Virus record (IMG/VR): IMGVR_UViG_3300009164_005523 | Span: 1 to 34,789 of that record | Length of the DNA stretch: 34,789 bases | Reading direction: 5' to 3' (one strand) | Source of the DNA: a virus | Translations under genes and position numbers: made by a program | The notes under the pieces: generated by a model | What the model was told of the DNA's origin: nothing | Seen by the model: only the letters and a program-made list of their open reading frames with translations | Databases searched by the model: none | Shown here: one piece after another, positions 3,391 through 25,773 of the stretch | How positions within the stretch are numbered: the stretch's first letter is position 1 | How the letters are laid out: each line of letters opens with the position of its first letter

Positions 3391-3840
3391 TTAGCCTTCA
3401 TAGATAGCTGAATTGGCACCATGCTCTGCACACTCTACTCGTACGCAATAGCAACGATCGTCAGTCTTTTCACGTATTAGTGCATCAGCAAAATTAAACG
3501 CATGTTCAGCAAACTTCTCTGCACCCACACCATCAAAGATTCTAATCTCTGCTAGATCCAATGCCGCCAGCTCTTGGAACTTGGCTAGATATGGATCACT
3601 TTTATCCAAGGCCAGCTTGTGATCAAAGTGATCTTCCAGCCATGCTTTGAGCGGTTTGAGTCCGCCAAAGTCCACTGCCCAGTTCTTATTGTCCAGTGTG
3701 TCGCAGCCAAAGGTGAATGTGAATGCTAGACTGTAACCATGTAGCAAGTGACAGTGACTGTGATCTGCATTAGGTTGACGGAATACCGCTGACAGACCAA
3801 TGTTGTGCCCGTAGTGTTTTGTTGAGTAAAATTTTGCCAT
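3391..3840 (-). CDS. queD: QueD-like 6-carboxytetrahydropterin synthase (PTPS family)
   Basis: Expected to convert dihydroneopterin triphosphate to 6-carboxytetrahydropterin, the second step toward 7-deazaguanine. The 149-residue product has the T-fold family features HSHCHLLHGYSL (27-38, with the probable catalytic Cys30 and His34), VDFGGLKPLKAWLEDHFDHK (about 56-75, the DF..LK...L..DH signature), and VRVECAEHGANSAIY near the C-terminus with the family Glu. Two positions that usually hold zinc His appear changed: HGH is HGY, and the earlier His is not evident, though extra His residues flank Cys30. With folE, queE and dpdA in the same window, a role in modified-base synthesis is more likely than biopterin synthesis. 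A strong terminator follows. Confidence 0.82.
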   Translation of the reverse strand: MAKFYSTKHYGHNIGLSAVFRQPNADHSHCHLLHGYSLAFTFTFGCDTLDNKNWAVDFGGLKPLKAWLEDHFDHKLALDKSDPYLAKFQELAALDLAEIRIFDGVGAEKFAEHAFNFADALIREKTDDRCYCVRVECAEHGANSAIYEG

Positions 3841-9966: not shown

Positions 9967-10301
9967 TATTTTTTACCTTTTTGAAATTCTTCTACGTCTT
10001 TAACCGCAGACTTCAGCGTCTCTGCATAGTTGAGTGCAGTTTGTTTTGGTAAGCATATAGTAGACTGTTGTTTAGTGTACCCAGAGGTGAGTATATCCCA
10101 TAGCTGCCGCCAGCGACTTTTGCTCCAAAATTCGGTCTTAGTAGTAACATAGATGTTAACAGTAACGTCGTGATCATCTGCTTCTACCCACAAGTCGTGC
10201 GTACAATCTGGATCAGTACATTCGCAGACAATCTGATAGACTTTTGAATCACCCCAGTCGTTGATCTTTAGAATACCTTGCGCTGGCGATTGTGCTTGCA
10301 T
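9966..10301 (-). CDS. Unknown protein with CxC...CxxxC-like cysteines, 111 aa
   Basis: I place the start at the ATG at 10301, inside TGATG at the end of queE, giving MQAQSPAQGILKINDWGDSK. Cysteines in IVCECTDPDCTHDLWV are spaced as in a small metal-binding site. The C-terminus is basic (EEFQKGKK). It probably represents a conserved phage family; the link to queE is only positional coupling. Confidence 0.7.
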   Translation of the reverse strand: MQAQSPAQGILKINDWGDSKVYQIVCECTDPDCTHDLWVEADDHDVTVNIYVTTKTEFWSKSRWRQLWDILTSGYTKQQSTICLPKQTALNYAETLKSAVKDVEEFQKGKK

Positions 10302-11164
10302 CAGGTGCCCCACGCATTGCGCCAGATGTCAACATGCAGTCGGGGACTGTAACGATAACCTCGTTCCAAGGCCAGTTCTGCCACTTGTTTTGTATTGAAG
10401 TGATACTGGTCTGGAATACCACCTTGTGGCATTAGGTAGACTGGCGATTCGACACCAGCGTCGCGATACTCTGCCACAGCCCTATCAACATCACCAACGT
10501 CATCACCATCGGCAACAACAAACTTGAGATAATACTCACTGCCCATAGGAACATCAAGACTAGCATAAGACTTGAATATGAGTGGCCTAATTGCCTCGCT
10601 CCACGACTCACCGCTGACTGTGAGTTTGGGACTGCATGACCAAGTAACGTGGAATCGGTCTTGGGTGGTGAGGTACTTTCTAAAATCATCATGTAGTTCC
10701 TGTGTTGTGTTAGTCTCAAAGGTTAGATTCTTTAAGTCTTGCATACGGGGATGATCGAATAGTTCTTGATAAGCACGTTGCCATCCCAGCAACGGCTCAC
10801 CGCCTGTGATAACAAGATGCACATCTTGACCATTGGGTTGAGTCCAGGTATTGTTGGGCACCAGTGCCAGCATCCTGTCAACAACTTCGTTGACTTCCAG
10901 GGTGGGACTCAGCGACTTGAACGCAGGGTGCCAACTGGCATAGCTGTCACATCCAGCAGTGGCCAATGGCAAATCTTCAAACGTCTTGTACAGTGTGATG
11001 TTTTCCCCAATTTGGTCTGGTTCATCTGTGTGGGTGCCCTTGGGCATGCCAAAGCCGGCACACTTGAAGTTGCAACCAAATGTACGCAAGAACACACTGG
11101 GAGTACCACTCCATCGTCCTTCGCCCTGTATGCTGTAAAAAATTTCTGCTATCTTAAGTTTCAT
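10301..11164 (-). CDS. queE: QueE-like radical SAM 7-carboxy-7-deazaguanine synthase
   Basis: Expected to convert 6-carboxytetrahydropterin to 7-carboxy-7-deazaguanine (CDG) using SAM and a 4Fe-4S cluster. The 287-residue product starts MKLKIAEIFYSIQGEG, the QueE-type entry (EIFxSIQGEG), has the SAM-binding GGEP at 121-124, and carries Cys31 and Cys35 in GCNFKC. The third cysteine of the usual CxxxCxxC is absent: the position after Cys35 reads AGF. A candidate replacement is Cys72 in AGCDSYASWHP. The ATG at 11164 overlaps the MazG-like gene by 11 bp; an upstream in-frame ATG adds 10 residues and lies in that gene. It works with folE, queD and dpdA. Confidence 0.82.
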   Translation of the reverse strand: MKLKIAEIFYSIQGEGRWSGTPSVFLRTFGCNFKCAGFGMPKGTHTDEPDQIGENITLYKTFEDLPLATAGCDSYASWHPAFKSLSPTLEVNEVVDRMLALVPNNTWTQPNGQDVHLVITGGEPLLGWQRAYQELFDHPRMQDLKNLTFETNTTQELHDDFRKYLTTQDRFHVTWSCSPKLTVSGESWSEAIRPLIFKSYASLDVPMGSEYYLKFVVADGDDVGDVDRAVAEYRDAGVESPVYLMPQGGIPDQYHFNTKQVAELALERGYRYSPRLHVDIWRNAWGT

Positions 11165-11426
11165 AAATCGTAGACCACTTTTTAAGTTTTTCAATTTTAA
11201 GAGCGCAGGCTGCTTCTAGTGCATTAAGATCAATTATATCGAAATCATGCATGAGTTTTATCATGCACAATACATCACCGACTTCTTCAGTCAATCGCTC
11301 TCTATTAGTGCCGCCTTCTTTACGATGGATGTTGTCAATGCCGAATCGACGACACTTACTAACCATCTGAATTACTTCAGCACATTCTTCTTGTAGGATA
11401 TTTAGAATCTCGTCTTGCTTAGACAT
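11154..11426 (-). CDS. MazG-like nucleotide pyrophosphohydrolase
   Basis: The 90-residue product has the all-alpha NTP pyrophosphatase pattern: EECAEV at 13-18 and EEVGDV at 47-52, the two acidic pairs that bind Mg2+. Such phage proteins hydrolyse (d)NTPs or alarmone-type nucleotides; the substrate here is unknown. The gene starts directly after the phosphoribosyltransferase stop and ends within the queE start region. A role in trimming non-canonical or surplus nucleotides would suit its setting, but this is inference. Confidence 0.75.
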   Translation of the reverse strand: MSKQDEILNILQEECAEVIQMVSKCRRFGIDNIHRKEGGTNRERLTEEVGDVLCMIKLMHDFDIIDLNALEAACALKIEKLKKWSTIYET

Positions 11427-11939
11427 TTATTTCCCCCACCAATCTTCCCAAGGAAAATCTATCCACACGTTGTGTTCTGCTTTGTTAACTTCAAGAGCAC
11501 TGTAATCATTGATGCCAGAGCTGGCAAGATTTTCAACAAGCACCGCAAACTTTACATTGTCTTTCCAAACGCTGTCCCAGGCCTCAACCTGATCCGGTAA
11601 ACAACCGCTTTGCCAATCATTCTTGATCCATTCCAAGGTAGCGCCGGTGTCATTGATGTCGTCAACGATGAGAATATTCTTTGGTGGATCTATGTAACCA
11701 TAGGCATCTTCTGCCATCCATAGATTACTTTCACACGCATCGCTGCCGCCATCTCTCAGAGATACTTTTAGTGTGTGCATGGGTACGTTAAAGTATTGGC
11801 TCAACATCACTGCTGGGACCAGCCCACCACGAGTAATGCCAACAACATAGTCCGGCCGCCAATTGCTATTGCTGATATCACGAGCAAGCTGGGCAGTCAT
11901 GCCCTGAACTTTATCCCAACTGAGTAATAGCTTGTCCAT
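11427..11939 (-). CDS. Phosphoribosyltransferase (purine PRTase-like)
   Basis: A 170-residue type I PRTase fold protein. It has a GITRGGLVPA segment at about 34-43 and the PRPP-binding motif ILIVDDINDTGAT at 89-101. The overall look is closest to xanthine-guanine or hypoxanthine PRTases (Gpt type), but the base specificity cannot be read. It would make nucleoside monophosphates from free base and PRPP. The C-terminus is Trp-rich (FPWEDWWGK). It overlaps the peptide deformylase gene by 29 bp. Confidence 0.8.
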   Translation of the reverse strand: MDKLLLSWDKVQGMTAQLARDISNSNWRPDYVVGITRGGLVPAVMLSQYFNVPMHTLKVSLRDGGSDACESNLWMAEDAYGYIDPPKNILIVDDINDTGATLEWIKNDWQSGCLPDQVEAWDSVWKDNVKFAVLVENLASSGINDYSALEVNKAEHNVWIDFPWEDWWGK

Positions 11940-12492
11940 CTAACACTTTCTTATAATCGATGCCTGCACGTTTAAAAATCTTGTTACGTTTCTTAAGAGC
12001 AAACTCTAGCTTTATTTTACTAGCTTTGTCTCTAAAAGTCAAGCCTTTTATGTGGTCATATTCATGTTGGAATATTCTAGCAGGCCAACCTTCCAAGAGT
12101 TCTTCAACTGTTTCACCATCCACTGTTTGATATCTAACAGCCACTGCATCCGGTCTCTTCAACCAAAGGAACAATGCAGGGAAACTTAGACAACCTTCTT
12201 CGAAGGTGGCGTCGGTGGGACTGTGACCCAGTAGTTCTGGATTGATGACAATCTTACTGCCTGCTGGAATGTCTCCCATGTTGGGCCATTGCATGACAAA
12301 CATCTGTGCATCAACGCCCACTTGGTTTGCACTGAGTCCGGCGCCGGAACAGCCAACCATAATTTTCATTAATCGTTGAGCCAAGGCCTTGGCATCGATT
12401 GTTGCATAATCTAAAGGTGCCAACTCTTTGACCAGCAACGGGTGTGTCTCTGGTACTAGTTGTAGTTGATCAATTTCTTCATTTGTCATCAT
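11911..12492 (-). CDS. def: Peptide deformylase
   Basis: Removes the N-formyl group from new proteins, using a metal ion. The 193-residue product has all three signature motifs: GLSANQVG (52-59), EGCLSFP (99-105, metal Cys101) and HEYDH (143-147, metal His143/147 and catalytic Glu144). The C-terminal extension after HEYDH is long for a phage version, with a basic KLEFALKKRNKIFK helix that could contact the ribosome. Two adjacent ATGs (12492, 12489) are possible starts. Phage-encoded PDFs are known from marine phages. Confidence 0.93.
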   Translation of the reverse strand: MMTNEEIDQLQLVPETHPLLVKELAPLDYATIDAKALAQRLMKIMVGCSGAGLSANQVGVDAQMFVMQWPNMGDIPAGSKIVINPELLGHSPTDATFEEGCLSFPALFLWLKRPDAVAVRYQTVDGETVEELLEGWPARIFQHEYDHIKGLTFRDKASKIKLEFALKKRNKIFKRAGIDYKKVLDGQAITQLG

Positions 12493-13002: not shown

Positions 13003-13683
13003 TTACTTGCAGCCTTTGTTGACAATGTTCATGAACTCCGAACGCACAGCCGGTTCGTTTTTAAAGCAACCGCCCAGCTTGCTGGTAACAGTGCTGGAGC
13101 CCACGTCTTCTACGCCACGACTCTTGACACAATAATGTTGTGCATCGATGACCACTGCAATGTTGTCTGTTTCTAGAATATACTGAAGTGCAAAATAAAT
13201 CTGCTCAGTGAGTCGTTCTTGAATCTGTGGACGCTTGGCAAAATATTCAACGATGCGATTGATCTTACTCAAGCCCAGTACTTTGTTATTTGGAATATAT
13301 CCAACTGTGGCCAGTCCGTCGATGACAACGAAGTGATGTTCGCAGTTGCTTTGAACGTTAATGCCACGTTCCACAACCATCTCATCATATTTCATTTTGT
13401 TATCTACAGTGGTGCATTTGGGAAATGCCTCGTAGTCTAGACCCCAGAATATTTCATTGACATACATCTTGGCCACACGCTTGGGTGTGTCCATTAGACT
13501 GTCATCACTTAGGTCCAGCCCAAGTGTTTCCATGATCTGATGCATGTGGCGTTCGATAATATCAATCTTATCTTTACGCTCTATATTGTTGGAGATTGTT
13601 GGAGTTTCTACACCGCATTTGATTAAGTGCTCGTGTACTTGTTGACCCAAAGACGGATCGGTTTTGGTTTTATTGTATGACAT
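13003..13683 (-). CDS. folE: GTP cyclohydrolase I
   Basis: Converts GTP to dihydroneopterin triphosphate, the first step of both folate and 7-deazaguanine synthesis. The 226-residue product has the FolE zinc ligands Cys114 and His117 in SNCEHH and Cys185 in QHYCVKSRG, plus GLSKINRIVEYFAKRPQIQERLT at about 137-159. The length matches bacterial FolE. AAGGAAGG precedes the ATG at 13683. Its leader contains a terminator-like hairpin (13711-13736). With queD, queE and dpdA present, the product is most likely channelled to a modified DNA base. Confidence 0.95.
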   Translation of the reverse strand: MSYNKTKTDPSLGQQVHEHLIKCGVETPTISNNIERKDKIDIIERHMHQIMETLGLDLSDDSLMDTPKRVAKMYVNEIFWGLDYEAFPKCTTVDNKMKYDEMVVERGINVQSNCEHHFVVIDGLATVGYIPNNKVLGLSKINRIVEYFAKRPQIQERLTEQIYFALQYILETDNIAVVIDAQHYCVKSRGVEDVGSSTVTSKLGGCFKNEPAVRSEFMNIVNKGCK

Positions 13684-13785: not shown

Positions 13786-13977
13786 CTACCAATGATGAAT
13801 AACATTGGCAATGATGACAAAGCAAGTTATGGTGTGCAGTGCCACCCAAAATGTTTTTAAGAACAGTGCAATGCGAGCTTCTGTGCGAGTTAATATGGGT
13901 ACATCCGGACGATCATCGTCGGTGGCGCCCATCAAGTGCCCAGTGGCTCGTGCCCAGATCTTTTCTAGTCCATTCAC
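13786..13977 (-). CDS. Small membrane protein, 63 aa
   Basis: The N-terminal half is soluble and charged (MNGLEKIWARATGHLMG). The C-terminal half has one hydrophobic segment, about 36-60, ending in FVIIANVIHHW. The ATG overlaps the glycosyltransferase stop as ATGA, making it the last gene of the dpdA-led operon. Function unknown; it could hold a partner at the membrane. Confidence 0.6.
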   Translation of the reverse strand: MNGLEKIWARATGHLMGATDDDRPDVPILTRTEARIALFLKTFWVALHTITCFVIIANVIHHW

Positions 13978-15050
13978 TTTAGGTTTTCCAATAGTGGAGT
14001 TGCCGAAAAGAAATTCTCTTCTAGGTGCTGTTGTTGGCGCTCAATGACTTCAGTGAGACTGTCAAAGTCTGCCATGGTTTGTTTGATCAACATGATCAAT
14101 TGGTCTTTGTTGGCAAGATAACTATCCCAAGAACTGGTCCAGGCACTGGGGTACTTACTGTTGGGCAAGTACATTTCGCTGTAACTAAGTCTATCTGGCA
14201 CCAAAGGCATTGCCCCAACACACAGTCCTTCATAGCAACTAATGCCCAAAGTCTCTTGTAAGTTTGCACTAAACACAATCTTACTTTGTCCCAGTAGCTT
14301 GTGATACTCTGCTTTGGACAATTGTTGTTCTTGACAAACTACCCACTGGTATTCAGGCATGGCTTCTGCCAAGTCCTTGAAGATCTCCACCTGCTTCTCG
14401 GGGGCAATACGATGCGGGAATAGGATTAAATCACGCTTGGGTTGTTTAGAATATTCCAGCAATACATGCTTTAGATATTCCATGGGCCAGCCTGTACGTA
14501 CAATCTTCTTATTGATCAACTGACGATCTAGCCAGAAGTCCTCGGTTGTTTTGTACAGATTGGTTTCAAACATGTCAATGTGAAACTGCGTGGCAAAGTA
14601 GTTGTGATCAGCCGCTTCATAAAATGATTTCTCAGCATGTCTTACCCAAGGAGCATCTCCAATGAGTCTACCTAAGAAATCGTGAGGGTCATATGACCCA
14701 GCATGCCACAGTGCATGAATCGTTACCGGAATACCCAGCAACTCGCTCATGTACTTTAAGTTTATGATGCCGGGATGCCATGCATCAGTAAAGATAAAAT
14801 GACTGCCAGCCTCGACGGATCCTGAGCAAAAAAGTCTTCCAAGCTGTTCAACTTGGTTTGCCTTATAGATATTAGTGCCCCCAAAATTGAGAAACGCACC
14901 AGGAGTAGTGGCGCTAGGAATATCGCCAGGGCCCGATATAACATGAACTTCATGACCTGCTCCTTGTAGTAGACGTGGGATGTGATCTTTCCATTGGCCG
15001 GTATAACGGCTTTCAACAGATTCTAAATCGATTAAAAAAATCTTACTCAT
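13974..15050 (-). CDS. GT4-like (GT-B fold) glycosyltransferase
   Basis: A 358-residue protein with features of GT-B glycosyltransferases. The second domain has LFPHRIAPEKQVEIFKDLA (about 210-228), a common nucleotide-sugar-site lead-in, and an E-x7-E motif in ETLGISCYE (Glu266 and Glu274) followed by GLCVGAMPLVPDR. The N-terminal domain begins MSKIFLIDLESVESRYTGQW. It lies in the dpdA operon, 8 bp after the 70-residue gene. Phage GT-B enzymes can glucosylate DNA bases, as T4 alpha-gt and beta-gt do, or decorate virion or host glycans; which applies here is open. Confidence 0.82.
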   Translation of the reverse strand: MSKIFLIDLESVESRYTGQWKDHIPRLLQGAGHEVHVISGPGDIPSATTPGAFLNFGGTNIYKANQVEQLGRLFCSGSVEAGSHFIFTDAWHPGIINLKYMSELLGIPVTIHALWHAGSYDPHDFLGRLIGDAPWVRHAEKSFYEAADHNYFATQFHIDMFETNLYKTTEDFWLDRQLINKKIVRTGWPMEYLKHVLLEYSKQPKRDLILFPHRIAPEKQVEIFKDLAEAMPEYQWVVCQEQQLSKAEYHKLLGQSKIVFSANLQETLGISCYEGLCVGAMPLVPDRLSYSEMYLPNSKYPSAWTSSWDSYLANKDQLIMLIKQTMADFDSLTEVIERQQQHLEENFFSATPLLENLK

Positions 15051-15058
15051 CCCTGATC

Positions 15059-15271
15059 CTATCGATTGTTATGTTCTGCCCTTGCATTGCGATTCTTTCG
15101 GCGTAGGTACGCTTCATACTTGCCCCATGTACTGCCGGGCTTGTATAGATCCGCCTCGTTAAAGGGCTTACCTTCGAAACGGCACCAGTCCCGGTACGCA
15201 TCTAGGTCCTCAAAGATTTTTGCCACTTCTGGCTTTAGTCGAAGGTATTTGTTGTTTACTTTAGTAGTCAT
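15059..15271 (-). CDS. Conserved small basic protein, 70 aa
   Basis: The product begins MTTKVNNKYLRLKPEVAKIF, contains WCRFEGKPFNEADLYKPGS, and ends in a very basic tail (LRRKNRNARAEHNNR). I believe similar proteins occur in other phages, but no function is known. It lies in the dpdA operon, between the T-fold-like gene and the glycosyltransferase. The basic tail could bind nucleic acid (inference). Confidence 0.68.
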   Translation of the reverse strand: MTTKVNNKYLRLKPEVAKIFEDLDAYRDWCRFEGKPFNEADLYKPGSTWGKYEAYLRRKNRNARAEHNNR

Positions 15272-15291
15272 ACTTTCACCTGTTTGTATTA

Positions 15292-15681
15292 TTAAAACTT
15301 AATGAAGCAGCCATTTTCGCCGTCTTCACTTACTTCAATCCAAATCTCACGACCTGGATACCTTGCTGAGATTGTTGCATTTAAATCCTCTGCAATCATC
15401 TCACATGATTTAAAGTCAAGTTCAAGGGTGCCATCATTGTAGCATTTCTCGAGCCAACGTTTAAACTGGATAAATTCAATGTCACGGTCATCGTGAAACA
15501 CTTGAATGTAAACTTTAAAATGGAAAATATGTCTATGTGAGTTAGCCAGGAAGCTGACGTCATATTCTCCTGCTGTGCAGAGATTGGGATCTGTTGCCGC
15601 CGCCGGATAGCGATGAATGCCTTCCTTGCGAAAGGTAACCCAAATCATCTTGTTAGGTCTGATATCTGTTTTGATAATCAT
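15292..15681 (-). CDS. Possible second QueD/PTPS-type T-fold protein, 129 aa
   Basis: Not a confident family match, but the order of features resembles the PTPS/QueD T-fold: SHRHIFHFKVYI near residues 48-59 (strand with His), DRDIEFIQFKRWLEKC (like DF..LK..L), LELDFKSCEMIAEDL (like LDH..... E.LA), and IWIEVSEDGENGCFI at the C-terminus (like V.V.ET). Zinc-binding HxxxHGH is absent, so it may be a non-catalytic or repurposed relative. The start overlaps the preceding stop as ATGA. It lies in the dpdA operon, fitting a pterin or deazaguanine link. Confidence 0.5.
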   Translation of the reverse strand: MIIKTDIRPNKMIWVTFRKEGIHRYPAAATDPNLCTAGEYDVSFLANSHRHIFHFKVYIQVFHDDRDIEFIQFKRWLEKCYNDGTLELDFKSCEMIAEDLNATISARYPGREIWIEVSEDGENGCFIKF

Positions 15682-16196
15682 AATGTTGTGTCCTGTGTAT
15701 ATTGATCCCAGTGGGTATAAGTTTTGTTAGTCATGAGGTCATGCAGTTGATGAGTCCACACGCCGGGGTTTGTTGCACCCCAGGTACGGTCATCAATTTT
15801 AATAGTTGTGTTATAATTGTACAATCCAATGTAGGGCAGTTTAACACTGATCATTGGCACAAAACGATTGTGCTCACATAGTCCGCTTTCCAGTAGACCT
15901 TCCGCTTGTTGAGCGTCTAAGTCTAGGGTACACCAGAAGCCAGCTTCTAAACAAGCCTTGATCATCTGCTCCCAGGGGAACCAAGCATCATAGTTGTTGA
16001 TACCAATGTTGGGGAAACTTTGGCTAGTGCCAAAATAGATGTGAGTAACTTTATTCTCACGGGCATGAGCAAGGATCTCTTCCACTGGCTGTACACCCAC
16101 AACAAACAGTGTAAACATGTCATAGCATACAGTGTGTTCAACTTCGAACCCTGTAAAATACTTAACGGCTTGCCGCTCTTCTGTGTTTAGTCCCAT
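15678..16196 (-). CDS. Conserved unknown protein in the dpdA operon, 172 aa
   Basis: The product begins MGLNTEERQAVKYFTGFEVE. It has blocks that look like a folded enzyme: VTHIYFGTSQSFPNIG, GFWCTLDLDAQQAEGLLESG, and HNRFVPMISVKLPYIGLYNY. I recall similar uncharacterised proteins in aquatic T4-like phages, but can assign no family. Its ATG lies inside the last codons of the dehydrogenase gene (10-bp overlap) and its stop overlaps the next start (ATGA). The tight coupling suggests it works with its neighbours. Confidence 0.72.
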   Translation of the reverse strand: MGLNTEERQAVKYFTGFEVEHTVCYDMFTLFVVGVQPVEEILAHARENKVTHIYFGTSQSFPNIGINNYDAWFPWEQMIKACLEAGFWCTLDLDAQQAEGLLESGLCEHNRFVPMISVKLPYIGLYNYNTTIKIDDRTWGATNPGVWTHQLHDLMTNKTYTHWDQYTQDTTL

Positions 16197-17077
16197 TTGA
16201 TATATCCTCTATTGTAGCCGCTTGGACGATCCTTACCATCCGCAAACGCTTGTTGCCATTGTGTACTACGAGTATAACACTTTGTCCAGAACTTGTCAAC
16301 ATTAATATGACCAGTCTCAATCATCCAAACTGCATCTCTCATACGTTGATGAAAATTTGGATTACGTGGGCTTGGCCGAATGGTTGTACAGGCTTTCCAA
16401 AGTTGTTGCTGTGCTTCATTTTTATTAATTGTTTTACCAACACCGTCAATTATCAGTGCATTGTTATTTAGGCTAATATCGGCACCCAGTTCATATTTTC
16501 CGCTGAGATCGATTACTACATCATAACTTTTGGTAGAACTCGAGGACAATCGATTGTCCCATAGATCAGAGTTGCTAGATCCTATGACATCAACAGTGAT
16601 GCCAGGCCACATCATTGATAACTTGTGAAATGCCACCCACGCAAGAAAGCCACTGCCTAGGATCACGATGTTGCCATGCTGTCTATCTTTGATTTGTTCA
16701 TATGCTTGGCTTACTATGTTGATGCCACAGGCCACAGGCTCGATGATGTATCTTGGATGCGCTTCGGGAATCCACACATATTCGTTTTCACGTACATTGT
16801 AGTAGTCTGCATAGGCAGGCTCGCCTCTTGTGGCAACAAAATCTCCAACTTCGATATTGAGAACTTTACTGCCAACCTTGACCACTTGTGCAAGTCCTTC
16901 ATGACCTTGCATACTCAATGGCAGCGGACCGAAGTCACCCAGCATCATATCAATGTCACTGCGACACACACCTGTCATGACGGCCTTGACAAATATATCA
17001 GCGTCGCCCAAGTCGGGATTGTCATAAGTTACTTCTTCAAAGTAACCTTGCCCTGTGGTTTGTAAACAACGTGTCAT
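16187..17077 (-). CDS. Zinc-type alcohol dehydrogenase-like (MDR family) oxidoreductase
   Basis: The 296-residue product has the MDR N-terminal catalytic-domain signature: GVCRSDIDM (Cys38, catalytic zinc ligand), GHEGLAQVVKVGSKV (His59/Glu60), and EPVACGIN (Glu113, third ligand region). A Rossmann segment VILGSGFLAWVA follows. The structural-zinc four-Cys loop is missing and the total is shorter than the usual 340 residues. Expected to oxidise or reduce an alcohol/aldehyde or sugar with NAD(P). The ATG at 17077 overlaps the Gfo/Idh-like stop (ATGA); an upstream in-frame ATG lies inside that gene. Substrate unknown. Confidence 0.85.
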   Translation of the reverse strand: MTRCLQTTGQGYFEEVTYDNPDLGDADIFVKAVMTGVCRSDIDMMLGDFGPLPLSMQGHEGLAQVVKVGSKVLNIEVGDFVATRGEPAYADYYNVRENEYVWIPEAHPRYIIEPVACGINIVSQAYEQIKDRQHGNIVILGSGFLAWVAFHKLSMMWPGITVDVIGSSNSDLWDNRLSSSSTKSYDVVIDLSGKYELGADISLNNNALIIDGVGKTINKNEAQQQLWKACTTIRPSPRNPNFHQRMRDAVWMIETGHINVDKFWTKCYTRSTQWQQAFADGKDRPSGYNRGYIKWD

Positions 17078-17961
17078 AGTAGTTCTATTTGTTTGTGAAT
17101 CCATACATCTTGTCTGCATTGGTCTTTCCAGTACTCATCATTATTTAGGTTCGTAACAGCAGACACAATCATTTTTTTGTAAGCACTTTCTGGACATAGA
17201 CCTAGTTCATGCCTTATTGAAGATGACTTAGTTTCAAATGTAATACTACTGTCATCTGCAACATCATCCTTCCAGTTGGCAGTCAGTATCCATGAGGTAT
17301 TACCATTTTTAAATTCAAACTCACAGAAATCATCTACGTTATAAATGCCATCATGATTGACAGTGCCGTAGTCTGTGGACGTGACGTCTTTTAAATTGTG
17401 TCGTTGTTCAGCCAAGGAAAATAACTTGTCACCATCTGCGTAGTTGGTCAATGCACAGTAGTAACTCAGCATGTGGGGGATAAGGTCTCGACTGACTCCA
17501 CCAAACGCTTTGATCTTGGTGGTAAACCAACTACCTGGATTAGGTATTCTATTTTTACTATTCCACTTAATGGTTACTTTACTGGCATTACTGGCCAAAT
17601 CTCGAAATGCTGAAATTTCATCACGGTGTTGATTATTCTTCACCATGGCGATGCAAGTGCTGGGGAAATCATTGACTAGTTTTTGCCAAGCAATGTTATC
17701 AACTACCCCAGGCTTTTCTACAAAGACAATGTCGGAACAACTGGCCACTAACCTAGCGATTTTATCATGCGTGAAGTTGGGTGTGCAGATGTTGACAATA
17801 TTAAATTGTCGATGTACAGCCACTGCTTCTGTTACATCAGTAAAATCTGCACCTTTGTTGGGATCTGCATCAACAGTTATTACTTGGTAACCGAGGCTGG
17901 TCAACACTGGCTTGTACACAGCTTGACCAAATCCCATGCCTACTATAAGGCTTTTTTTCAT
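17074..17961 (-). CDS. Gfo/Idh/MocA-type NAD(P)-dependent oxidoreductase
   Basis: The 295-residue product starts MKKSLIVGMGFGQAVYKPVL with a Gly-rich nucleotide-binding turn, then VNICTPNFTH (56-65) and the family hallmark EKP at 82-84, followed by a C-terminal half typical of sugar oxidoreductases. Members act on sugars, sugar nucleotides or inositols. It starts three bases after the dpdA stop and overlaps the MDR dehydrogenase, so the two redox enzymes are co-produced with the base-insertion enzyme. Whether they act on a sugar for the glycosyltransferase or on the modified base is open. Confidence 0.82.
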   Translation of the reverse strand: MKKSLIVGMGFGQAVYKPVLTSLGYQVITVDADPNKGADFTDVTEAVAVHRQFNIVNICTPNFTHDKIARLVASCSDIVFVEKPGVVDNIAWQKLVNDFPSTCIAMVKNNQHRDEISAFRDLASNASKVTIKWNSKNRIPNPGSWFTTKIKAFGGVSRDLIPHMLSYYCALTNYADGDKLFSLAEQRHNLKDVTSTDYGTVNHDGIYNVDDFCEFEFKNGNTSWILTANWKDDVADDSSITFETKSSSIRHELGLCPESAYKKMIVSAVTNLNNDEYWKDQCRQDVWIHKQIELL

Positions 17962-17964
17962 AGC

Positions 17965-19428
17965 TTACTCGAAGAAGTTGTTGTAGGAGGTTGTTGCGTT
18001 GAGAGTTTTTTTGCCAATATAACCACGTGTACCGACAATGCTCATCCAGTATCTGCTGTATTCTTCCACCAATTGATCTGCACGACCACGGTCGCTGGTG
18101 GCAAAGATATCTTCAACAATATCTCGGAAGAATTTTAAGTCGCCTTCTGTTTGAACTAGCATGCTAGGTTTAGCACCTGCATCATATTGTCTATTGGCTT
18201 CTTGCACTGCGTAAAGGTGTGTCCACACATTGTGACCCATTTGTATGGCATAGCTAAAACTATCCCAGCTAGTCTTGCCTTCCTTGCCAATTTTATTTAG
18301 ATCACCGGGTGCATAGATACAAATGTCTTTCATTGCAGTGCGTTGTATAATGGGACTGTTGATAAAATTAGGAAACTGTCCATCTTGCATCACTGCATCA
18401 CGGAAGCGACGAGTGTCGGAGGAATACTTTTTATCATCAACACTGGGGCTCATGCGATAACTCCACTTTTGTTGATCAGTGGTGTCTACTTCGTAATATA
18501 TCTGACCATTTGCTGTGGCCAAGAATGGACTTGCACAGTCAAAGCTGATGGTGAAGTTTTCGTTGTGATGTTTGCGAACAGCACGTTGGACATCTGTCAG
18601 CAAGGTTGCCCACTCTAGTTTACTAGTGCCCAAGAAGTGCATCCAGTCGTGAATGCCTTTTTCCAACAAGTTGTCGAATCTAAGAGCAACAAGACGTTTG
18701 AGTGTCAGGTGAATGTCACACATGTTCTGGCCGCCCATGGCCCAACCATTGAAGTGGCGACCTGGATACTGCTTGGGATCGCAGTACTTCTTCATGTGCT
18801 GATACCAACCATCTGCATCAGTGTGATTCTCGCCTTGGAGAACGTTTAGGAATTTACAGTTACCGTTACGATTATTAATGAACCAATCATTGTTAATAAA
18901 CGTACCTTGCACGGCTTCGTCATAGGTAGTGATGCCTGTGGCCTTTTGTCCAGCAGGACTACGAGCGACCCAAGCTGGAATATCAAGTCCCATGCCATAG
19001 TCCATGTAGGCATCCATCCACGTCAGTACTTGTTCACGCTTCTTCTGTGCCTTGGGACAGTTGGGGTCTTTCCAATTGCCTTCCCACACGCCTTTACCAA
19101 TTTGGAATCCGCCTGAGTCACCCAGCAAAAATGTATTTGCTCGGTCTCTGTTGCGGATCATGTCTTCCTTGGGAGAGTGCTTGTTGACATCTAATTCAGC
19201 ATGTCCTGCCGAGTACAAACTCCACTTGTATGTAAAGTATCCTTGATCAGCATTGAGCCAATTCATTCCCTCTACACCATGTTCAAAGTCTGCAGGTATG
19301 CGAGCAGGGTCGACATAGGTAGGATCGTGTCGTTGCTTGCCCACATACGTGGCGTAGAAACCGCTGAGGGCTGGCAAAAAGACTGCGTAGTCACTTTGCA
19401 AAGCGGTTAAGTTATCTTTATCGAACAT
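17965..19428 (-). CDS. dpdA: DpdA-like DNA 7-deazaguanine transglycosylase (TGT family)
   Basis: A tRNA-guanine transglycosylase homologue of the DpdA kind, which exchanges guanine in phage DNA for a 7-deazaguanine base. In 487 residues the TGT landmarks are visible in order: LLGDSGGFQIG (101-111, catalytic-base Asp104), LNVLQGE (194-200, like the TGT GIVQGG), GWAMGG (228-233, like GLAVGE), and SFDCASPF (295-302, probable nucleophile Asp297). The C-terminal zinc site and RNA-binding part of tRNA TGTs are not recognisable. No Shine-Dalgarno precedes the ATG at 19428, and the promoter upstream would start transcription at about that ATG. It heads an operon of eight genes. Confidence 0.87.
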   Translation of the reverse strand: MFDKDNLTALQSDYAVFLPALSGFYATYVGKQRHDPTYVDPARIPADFEHGVEGMNWLNADQGYFTYKWSLYSAGHAELDVNKHSPKEDMIRNRDRANTFLLGDSGGFQIGKGVWEGNWKDPNCPKAQKKREQVLTWMDAYMDYGMGLDIPAWVARSPAGQKATGITTYDEAVQGTFINNDWFINNRNGNCKFLNVLQGENHTDADGWYQHMKKYCDPKQYPGRHFNGWAMGGQNMCDIHLTLKRLVALRFDNLLEKGIHDWMHFLGTSKLEWATLLTDVQRAVRKHHNENFTISFDCASPFLATANGQIYYEVDTTDQQKWSYRMSPSVDDKKYSSDTRRFRDAVMQDGQFPNFINSPIIQRTAMKDICIYAPGDLNKIGKEGKTSWDSFSYAIQMGHNVWTHLYAVQEANRQYDAGAKPSMLVQTEGDLKFFRDIVEDIFATSDRGRADQLVEEYSRYWMSIVGTRGYIGKKTLNATTSYNNFFE

Positions 19429-24421: not shown

Positions 24422-24760
24422 TTAGACAGTTTCTTCGATATCTTGGACTTCATTGCCAAGATGAAAGGACACGCTCTTGACCTTGTCCCAGCGGAATGCC
24501 CGCCATTCTTGTTTGTTTACATCAAACACTCTAAGGCTTTCTTCGCTGACCTTGCGTGGTGTTGCTCCTTCTGCCAAGGGCTTGGGCAGTTGTGATTCAG
24601 GAATGGCAGACTCCTGTAGAGTACATTCCATGCTTCTGAAATCGCCGTTGACTTTTTCAAAATCAACAGTGACATTGCCCATGCGAAGATGTGAAATTAA
24701 CCAAGGCTTAAACGCCTCGAGGTCAACTGTTGATGGCGTATTGTTTGATAAGTCGTTCAT
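24422..24760 (-). CDS. SH3-fold / WYL_2-like protein, 112 aa
   Basis: I choose the ATG at 24760 (MNDLSNNTPSTVDLEAF) because AAGGACA lies before it; the frame is open 24 codons further. The C-terminal region LRVFDVNKQEWRAFRWDKVKSV resembles the small SH3-like barrel seen in phage WYL_2/DUF2693-type proteins. Its start overlaps the nucleosidase gene by 38 bp. Function unknown; the fold often contacts nucleic acid or proteins. Confidence 0.5.
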   Translation of the reverse strand: MNDLSNNTPSTVDLEAFKPWLISHLRMGNVTVDFEKVNGDFRSMECTLQESAIPESQLPKPLAEGATPRKVSEESLRVFDVNKQEWRAFRWDKVKSVSFHLGNEVQDIEETV

Positions 24761-25259
24761 AATGGTCTTGTCCTTTGTGTATGTTGTCGCCGAATGATTC
24801 GGCTGCGTTGGCGTCAGCTTTGTCGCTGACATACTTGTGGCAAATAAATTCTACGCCTGCTTTCCAGCAAGCCCAGGCTATAGCATAGCCTTCCATGTCA
24901 ACCAAATCTGCACCCGGGCAAGCACTGCTGTCTGTGACAAAGTTATCCCCAGTGCTGAGATGTAGTCCACCACCTCGTAGGTTGATTGGTGCTGTTGCAT
25001 GTTCCTGCGACACAATACTACCGGAGACAAAATAGTCACGTTGACTAAACGTAGTGCAATGGTAGATCCCACCATGCTCTACTGTGAGTCCGCCGGCAGT
25101 GCCAAAGTTAAACACTCTTTTGGGCTTGTGTCTTTCAATCAGCATGCCGGCATTCAATGCCGCATTGACTTTTCCAACTCCGGTATAGAACACATCAATT
25201 CGAGATCTTAGCTTAGGTGCTTCGTCTGGCAGTGCAATTAAAATAATATCATTCATCAT
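24723..25259 (-). CDS. MTA/SAH nucleosidase-like (purine nucleosidase / phosphorylase family)
   Basis: The 178-residue product shows the family pattern: ALPDEAPKL near residues 9-17 (Glu as in MTAN E12), TGVGKVNAA at about 26-34, NFGTAGGL (51-58), LVDMEGYAIAWAC (Met-Glu-Gly substrate site) and a VSDKAD segment with the catalytic Asp. It would split adenine from 5'-methylthioadenosine, S-adenosylhomocysteine or 5'-deoxyadenosine. It is shorter than the usual 230 residues. Two ATGs (25259, 25256) are possible. Directly upstream lies APRT, which could reuse the released adenine. Confidence 0.75.
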   Translation of the reverse strand: MMNDIILIALPDEAPKLRSRIDVFYTGVGKVNAALNAGMLIERHKPKRVFNFGTAGGLTVEHGGIYHCTTFSQRDYFVSGSIVSQEHATAPINLRGGGLHLSTGDNFVTDSSACPGADLVDMEGYAIAWACWKAGVEFICHKYVSDKADANAAESFGDNIHKGQDHYERLIKQYAINS

Positions 25260-25773
25260 AGGTTACAGTGGTAAAAAAGTTTATCCCTTGTTGTTGTAAT
25301 TTGGCACTGCCATTCAAGAACGGCAAGTCGACCACACAGGCATAGGATATATTGGTGACATCAAAGTTTTTTAACAGTTCGATAACAGCCAATGCAGTGC
25401 CGCCTGTGGCATTGACATCGTCGATTATGACCACGTTGGAGTTCTTGTTTAAGTTAGAATCTGCTTTGATATGCAAACTTGTTTTGGCATATTCATAATC
25501 AAACTCGTAGCTGTGTGTCGGTGGAGGCAATTTTCCTGGTTTACGTACTAACTGCATGGGCAGTCCCAATTTATAGGCCACAGCACTGCTCCAAATAAAA
25601 CCTCTTGCATCTGGAGCAATAATGTAATCACACTGTGATTGTAGCACATAATCACTGATCAAGTCAACCGATAATTTGAATGCCTGGGGGTTGGAGACTA
25701 GGCCTGTGATGTCACGATAGACAACTCCCTCAATGGGCCAATTTGGAATATTTGGAATCGATTCTTTAATCAT
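25249..25773 (-). CDS. apt: Adenine phosphoribosyltransferase-like
   Basis: Makes AMP from adenine and PRPP. The 174-residue product has the APRT pattern IPNWPIEGVVYRDIT (8-22), DARGF (55-59), VRKPGKLP (76-83) and the PRPP motif VVIIDDVNATGGTA (114-127). The length fits bacterial APRT (about 180). It overlaps the nucleosidase gene by 11 bp, so the two are likely translated together as an adenine salvage pair. A terminator hairpin sits just before the gene. Confidence 0.85.
   Translation of the reverse strand: MIKESIPNIPNWPIEGVVYRDITGLVSNPQAFKLSVDLISDYVLQSQCDYIIAPDARGFIWSSAVAYKLGLPMQLVRKPGKLPPPTHSYEFDYEYAKTSLHIKADSNLNKNSNVVIIDDVNATGGTALAVIELLKNFDVTNISYACVVDLPFLNGSAKLQQQGINFFTTVTYDE

Follow-up and report, generated by a model that had tools for sequence, protein, structure and literature searches.

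We describe here an operon of eight genes, led by dpdA, in a 34,789-bp viral fragment (IMG/VR record IMGVR_UViG_3300009164_005523; the window, by which we mean this whole stretch). With a probability of roughly 60%, by our estimate, the operon makes a glycosylated 7-deazaguanine and installs it in phage DNA; every catalytic step, its substrate, and the order of the steps are inferred from homology and linkage. In this pathway, FolE, QueD, and QueE would produce 7-carboxy-7-deazaguanine (CDG), which a 129-aa protein (p129) would process instead of QueC, possibly removing the carboxyl group or altering C7 in some other way. A DpdA2 enzyme would swap guanine in replicated DNA for the processed base, and a GT4-type glycosyltransferase resembling QTMAN, aided by a 172-aa protein (p172) and a 70-aa protein (s70), would glycosylate the deazaguanine using a nucleotide-sugar donor, a step that would parallel QTMAN mannosylation of queuosine in tRNA. 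A Gfo/Idh-MDR pair would serve as an optional cassette oxidizing or epimerizing the sugar or its donor, and in other lineages its place may be taken by neighboring genes for a DegT aminotransferase, an epimerase, or a radical-SAM enzyme. The likely purpose would be shielding from host nucleases.

A conserved operon led by dpdA

The eight open reading frames all lie on the minus strand at 13786-19428, and their junctions bear out the original prediction, made from the sequence alone, of a dpdA-led operon with gaps of 20 bp or less and overlapping start and stop codons. A gap of 3 bp separates dpdA (17965-19428) from the gene for a Gfo/Idh/MocA-type oxidoreductase (17074-17961; 295 aa), which overlaps the gene for a zinc MDR dehydrogenase (16187-17119; 310 aa) by 46 bp from a far ATG or by 4 bp from a conserved start at 17077; the true MDR start is probably 17077, because conserved sequence starts near there. 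The MDR gene overlaps the p172 gene (15678-16196) by 10 bp, and the p172 and p129 (15292-15681) genes overlap by 4 bp. A 20-bp gap leads to the gene for the small basic protein s70 (15059-15271), an 8-bp gap to the glycosyltransferase gene (13974-15050; 358 aa), and a 4-bp GTGA overlap to the gene for a 63-aa membrane protein (13786-13977). The order DpdA-(Gfo-MDR)-p172-p129-s70-glycosyltransferase is repeated across a large family, and the arrangement is therefore not chance.

Scans of viral contigs with p172, p129, and the glycosyltransferase each returned at least about 600 matching stretches, so the family is large. Because such scans give the closest relatives first, the survey counts, all of them taken among the matches listed, describe this phage family rather than all DpdA phages. 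A set of 139 loci, dereplicated by DpdA and required to carry both DpdA and the glycosyltransferase, had p129 in 139, p172 in 137, and an s70 homolog in 128. Gfo and MDR were both present in 53 of these loci and both missing from 86, and no locus had only one of them. Of the 65 loci selected by Gfo, all had MDR and all but one had DpdA (64/65); in that one, Gfo begins 2.5 kb from the contig end. DpdA-selected loci, counted only where at least 4.5 kb lay downstream (n = 41), had the glycosyltransferase, p129, and p172 in every case and the redox pair in four. A quick PolB tree needs at least 21 changes in the Gfo/MDR state, and a DpdA tree needs 12. Given the all-or-none presence of Gfo and MDR, their repeated gain and loss, and the constant co-occurrence of the other genes, we conclude that DpdA, p129, p172, and the glycosyltransferase are the core and that the redox pair is a coherent optional cassette, which, being in just 53 of the 139 loci, is not needed for the core reaction. 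Redox and glycosyltransferase genes commonly standing without dpdA, the pattern that the original prediction had named as evidence against itself, were looked for, and the associations found instead favor a functional unit.

Similar groupings were found in independent phages. In Acidovorax phage ACP17, the genes for QueD, FolE, p172, DpdA, the glycosyltransferase, p129, and QueE are grouped, and no Gfo/MDR adjoins this operon; in the PA5oct group, DpdA-glycosyltransferase-p129 occurs with QueE, and Gfo-MDR-p172 lies about 27 kb off. Xanthomonas phage X1, Synechococcus phage BUCT-ZZ01, and Sinorhizobium phage Phosso carry p129 and the glycosyltransferase with FolE and QueE, and DpdA adjoins them in X1, is near in BUCT-ZZ01 (416 aa, assigned by eye from motifs), and lies elsewhere in Phosso. 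In a scan of GTDB genomes, a DpdA homolog lay within about 3 kb in 18 of the 21 contigs carrying this glycosyltransferase, at least three of the 18 looking like mis-binned phage. Magnetospirillum has the order glycosyltransferase-p129-DpdA-QueD, and Devosia, Azospirillum, Shimia, and other alphaproteobacteria have a Vut_1/YhhQ-like gene ahead of the glycosyltransferase. The glycosyltransferase profile had no match in phages phiST, nt-1, and 9g.

Some of the bacterial and archaeal entries deserve separate mention. Loci L410, L411, and L413, filed under Neomarinimicrobiota, Euryarchaeota, and Pacearchaeota, carry PolB and clamp genes alongside the phage operon and are probably phage contigs mis-binned into metagenome-assembled genomes. 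In the alphaproteobacterial loci L414-L416 and L425-L428 the glycosyltransferase and DpdA stand together, most with the Vut_1/YhhQ-like gene and some with a protein of about 585 aa and unknown function adjoining DpdA; these could represent a cellular DNA-modification system.

Predicted functions of the operon proteins

Pfam did not recognize the 487-aa DpdA protein, and a profile built from its alignment matched QTRT1 weakly (E = 0.056). Residues D104 (DSGGFQ) and D297 (FDCAS), which we take by motif to be the catalytic aspartate pair of tRNA-guanine transglycosylase (TGT), were present in 255/255 distinct homologs. The profile had one match in Vibrio phage nt-1 (E = 1.3e-17), YP_008125322. 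This is the protein to which the name DpdA2 was given, and nt-1 DNA contains dPreQ0, dADG, and dG+ (PMC6884629). Judged by these motifs and this match, the protein is a DpdA2-type DNA-guanine transglycosylase.

Beyond the genes in the original prediction, the window holds, also on the minus strand, folE (GTP cyclohydrolase I; 13003-13683, 102 bp beyond the eight-gene run; PF01227, 7e-62), queE (a 7-carboxy-7-deazaguanine synthase-like radical SAM gene; 10301-11194; TIGR03365, 2.7e-10, under the curated cut-off), and a separate true queD (6-carboxytetrahydropterin synthase; 3391-3840; PF01242, 2.5e-15; TIGR03367, 2.6e-8), which should allow the phage to make CDG. In five complete named phages QueD was found and no QueC scored over the family cut-off, which makes p129 the natural candidate to process CDG. 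The phage QueE has Cys41 and Cys45 (CX3C), but its third conserved cysteine lies at position 82 rather than three residues further along. The three cysteines were invariant in 130/130 homologs, and the spacing is unusual for a radical SAM cluster motif.

The suggestion that the operon includes a possible QueD-like protein proved right as to fold. From alignments of window and IMG/VR sequences only, AlphaFold2 gave a p129 model (pLDDT, the predicted local distance difference test, of 92) whose best Foldseek matches were PTPS and QueD (E = 6e-5, probability 1.00), and on this model p129 (phrog_17812) is a T-fold of the QueD/PTPS kind. H23, H49, and H51 were present in 243-244 of 244 sequences and E119 was conserved; the equivalence of this histidine triad and the glutamate to the expected metal and base sites was judged by eye. 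p129 thus shares with QueD/PTPS enzymes the fold, triad, and glutamate, but differs in that the catalytic cysteine of QueD/PTPS, again aligned by eye, is not conserved in its family, it had no Pfam match, including PF01242, and the phage has its separate true QueD. Profile-profile comparison with just four QueD rows was weak (probability 17.7%), and it was the structural model that decided the fold. Cui et al. in 2023 reportedly named a CDG decarboxylase DpdL. p129 may be this DpdL; both are predicted to act on CDG in phages.

p172, which had been noted as an unknown conserved protein, did turn out to be both conserved and an orphan: its model (AlphaFold2, pLDDT 88, built from the same kind of alignment) and sequence gave no Pfam, PDB, or significant fold match, and in BFVD the sole significant match was the ACP17 homolog. 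A PIG-L deacetylase was considered as a general partner and rejected, the motif in X1 having been seen by eye only, with no Pfam hit in X1 and one in 30 records.

The glycosyltransferase had been described as GT4-like with an E-x7-E motif, and E266-x7-E274 is indeed present. Its family has the GT4 donor-site pattern R-x4-K plus E-x7-E, with R214, K219, and E274 in 196/196 and E266 in 194/196 sequences. The window protein scored 17 bits against PF00534 (cut-off 26.4) and its X1 homolog 45.5 bits. We compared the family with a control set of PF00534 proteins from three bacterial genomes and PF12038 proteins from related genomes: five distinct QTMAN-family proteins ranked top (hhalign E from 4e-8 to 7.5e-13; HMMER from 5e-12 to 3e-17), and the best of the 22 other GT4s reached 5.9e-6, the remainder 0.004 or worse. 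Phage glycosyltransferase and QTMAN also have in common a motif like P-L/M-V/L-P-D/N-R-L-S/T-Y-S/P-E. Among the GT4s compared, then, the phage enzyme specifically resembles QTMAN, its apparent closest GT4 subfamily, which mannosylates queuosine in tRNA-Asp (PMC12313893). Of the proposal that the operon extends the deazaguanine base by oxidation or glycosylation, the glycosylation part was strengthened by this kinship, and the dehydrogenases lie outside the core; overall, the original interpretation is partly supported. The glycosyltransferase of phage PhiXhv-15 (25% identity) does not adjoin DpdA, and we treated it as a distant GT4.

The Gfo/Idh-type and MDR identities held up as well. The former scored 22.5 bits against PF01408, slightly short of the cut-off of 24, with PDB profile matches that include DgpA, and its K83 (the EKP lysine) and downstream D159 and H163 were present in 115-116 of 116 sequences; the latter matched PF08240 (37.5 bits; 3e-9), and its zinc ligands C52, H73, E74, and E127 were present in 112-113 of 113. 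Loss of the Gfo residues was confined to the PA5oct-type locus L018, and the MDR zinc ligands were likewise kept in all but the PA5oct-type proteins.

Competing explanations and known systems

An undecorated base would be a simpler outcome. Here p129, as the decarboxylase DpdL, would lead to plain 7-deazaguanine or CDG in DNA, and the glycosyltransferase and redox enzymes would act on another base or a free metabolite. p129 does occur without the glycosyltransferase in phages that have FolE with QueD or QueE (the Cellulophaga phiST group, RHph_I1_18, and Vibrio D479), which means that its product is usable alone, and the failure to find QueC in the five named phages also suits this explanation. 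We nevertheless consider it unlikely, since the glycosyltransferase was never separated from DpdA and p129 in phages of this family, its bacterial relatives pair with DpdA even where p129 does not adjoin, and the enzyme that it resembles adds its sugar to a deazaguanine base. We were also concerned that the glycosyltransferase and redox genes might belong to a capsule, lipopolysaccharide, or virion glycan pathway and that common ancestry of the replication region alone explains their place next to dpdA, as the UDP-glucose dehydrogenase, cytidylyltransferase, and epimerase genes near the operon in some relatives and the same PolB-clamp neighborhood in most loci could indicate. This seems rather improbable: the link between glycosyltransferase and DpdA is kept in unrelated phages and bacterial genomes whose surroundings differ, the glycosyltransferase was in 41/41 DpdA-selected loci, and Gfo/MDR were repeatedly gained or lost yet remain with DpdA. 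The usual substrate of TGT and QTMAN relatives is tRNA (PMC12313893), and the operon could accordingly modify tRNA, a TGT-like protein inserting the base and a QTMAN-like enzyme glycosylating it in favor of phage translation; we give this very little credence, as the DpdA here groups with the DpdA2 family, which is linked to DNA modification, and its neighbors include clamp and DNA polymerase genes.

Several observations weigh against a glycosylated deazaguanine in DNA, the explanation that we prefer. PF12038, the N-terminal domain of QTMAN, had no match to the window glycosyltransferase at E<=1, so the enzyme is a relative of QTMAN and not a member, and the relationship is remote at about 25% identity. 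The acceptor of QTMAN is a cyclopentenediol hydroxyl; no QueA- or QueG-like step was identified, and decarboxylation of CDG by p129 would leave no obvious hydroxyl to receive the sugar. In the PA5oct group, Gfo and MDR lack some of their catalytic residues and lie about 27 kb from dpdA; in L018 they still adjoin p172. Finally, the alternation of sugar-type genes described below is weakly significant (Fisher p 0.01-0.04) and confounded by lineage.

The closest known deazaguanine system is the DpdA2 system of nt-1, which likewise has FolE, QueD, and QueE with a DpdA2 homolog, its dpdA2 adjoining folE (PMC6884629); the named relatives of the window phage differ in that no QueC was found and in having p129, p172, and the glycosyltransferase, for which nt-1 had no profile match. 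QTMAN and QTGAL act on tRNA queuosine after a TGT-type base exchange (PMC12313893), the sequence of events that we propose here with a QTMAN-like enzyme, but the phage partner is a predicted DNA-directed DpdA, the glycosyltransferase falls under PF12038 detection, and no queuosine cyclopentene pathway was seen. Queuosine in animal tRNA carries a sugar, and in T-even phages the 5-hydroxymethylcytosine of DNA is glucosylated after replication, which is similar in giving a phage DNA base a sugar at that stage; the base and the chemistry are different, and the base here is predicted to be inserted by transglycosylation. We see about even odds that the operon represents a DNA counterpart of the mannosyl-queuosine pathway, in which DpdA takes the role of tRNA transglycosylase, a QTMAN-like enzyme adds a sugar to a 7-deazaguanine in the DNA of phages and some bacteria, and interchangeable cassettes (Gfo-MDR, DegT, epimerase, radical SAM, halogenase) provide lineage-specific decoration.

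The phage deazaguanines in the literature covered have small groups at position 7, and a sugar on a deazaguanine would, if true, be a new DNA modification. A literature search returned nothing naming QTMAN and phage together, with Cui et al. 2023 and a 2024 review in MMBR (Microbiology and Molecular Biology Reviews) outside its reach. The modification would be shared by hundreds of phage contigs from freshwater and by isolates that include PA5oct, Paride, and ACP17; it would connect deazaguanine biology in tRNA with that in DNA via both TGT/DpdA and QTMAN/glycosyltransferase and might help explain the nuclease resistance of these phages.

Variant cassettes and neighboring genes

Between the glycosyltransferase and folE, genes for a DegT aminotransferase, an epimerase, a UDP-glucose dehydrogenase, a cytidylyltransferase, or a radical SAM protein are found in other lineages. 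DegT and Gfo were seldom found together (1 vs 12, Fisher p 0.013), a test that is weak because lineage was uncontrolled. By gene content, this alternation of sugar-type genes would fit sugar tailoring.

In two loci that lack Gfo/MDR, the glycosyltransferase is immediately followed by radical SAM and B12-binding radical SAM genes (L098:12223-13248, L181:9468-11273). A tryptophan-halogenase family protein lies in the DpdA operon of four loci, L141:6671-8209 (PF04820, 332 bits) and, assigned by similarity, L034:6751-7953, L124:6918-8138, and L128:7581-8801; it has DpdA or MDR on one side and p172 or Gfo on the other and possibly provides a halogenation step. In the PA5oct-group phage PAC2 (L018:36172-37940), the EKP of Gfo has become DIN, with loss of K83, and MDR has lost two zinc ligands, a cysteine and a histidine.

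For the 63-aa membrane protein at the end of the operon, phrog_1679 matched at E = 3e-4 and phmmer recovered no homologs in the neighborhood survey. PADLOC gave no result. By eye, the window also has peptide deformylase-like, MTA/SAH nucleosidase-like, and APRT-like genes, at 11911-12492 and 24723-25773. Four loci have a sulfate permease (SulP) family gene between Gfo and MDR (L016:10843-12045, L011, L060, and L087).

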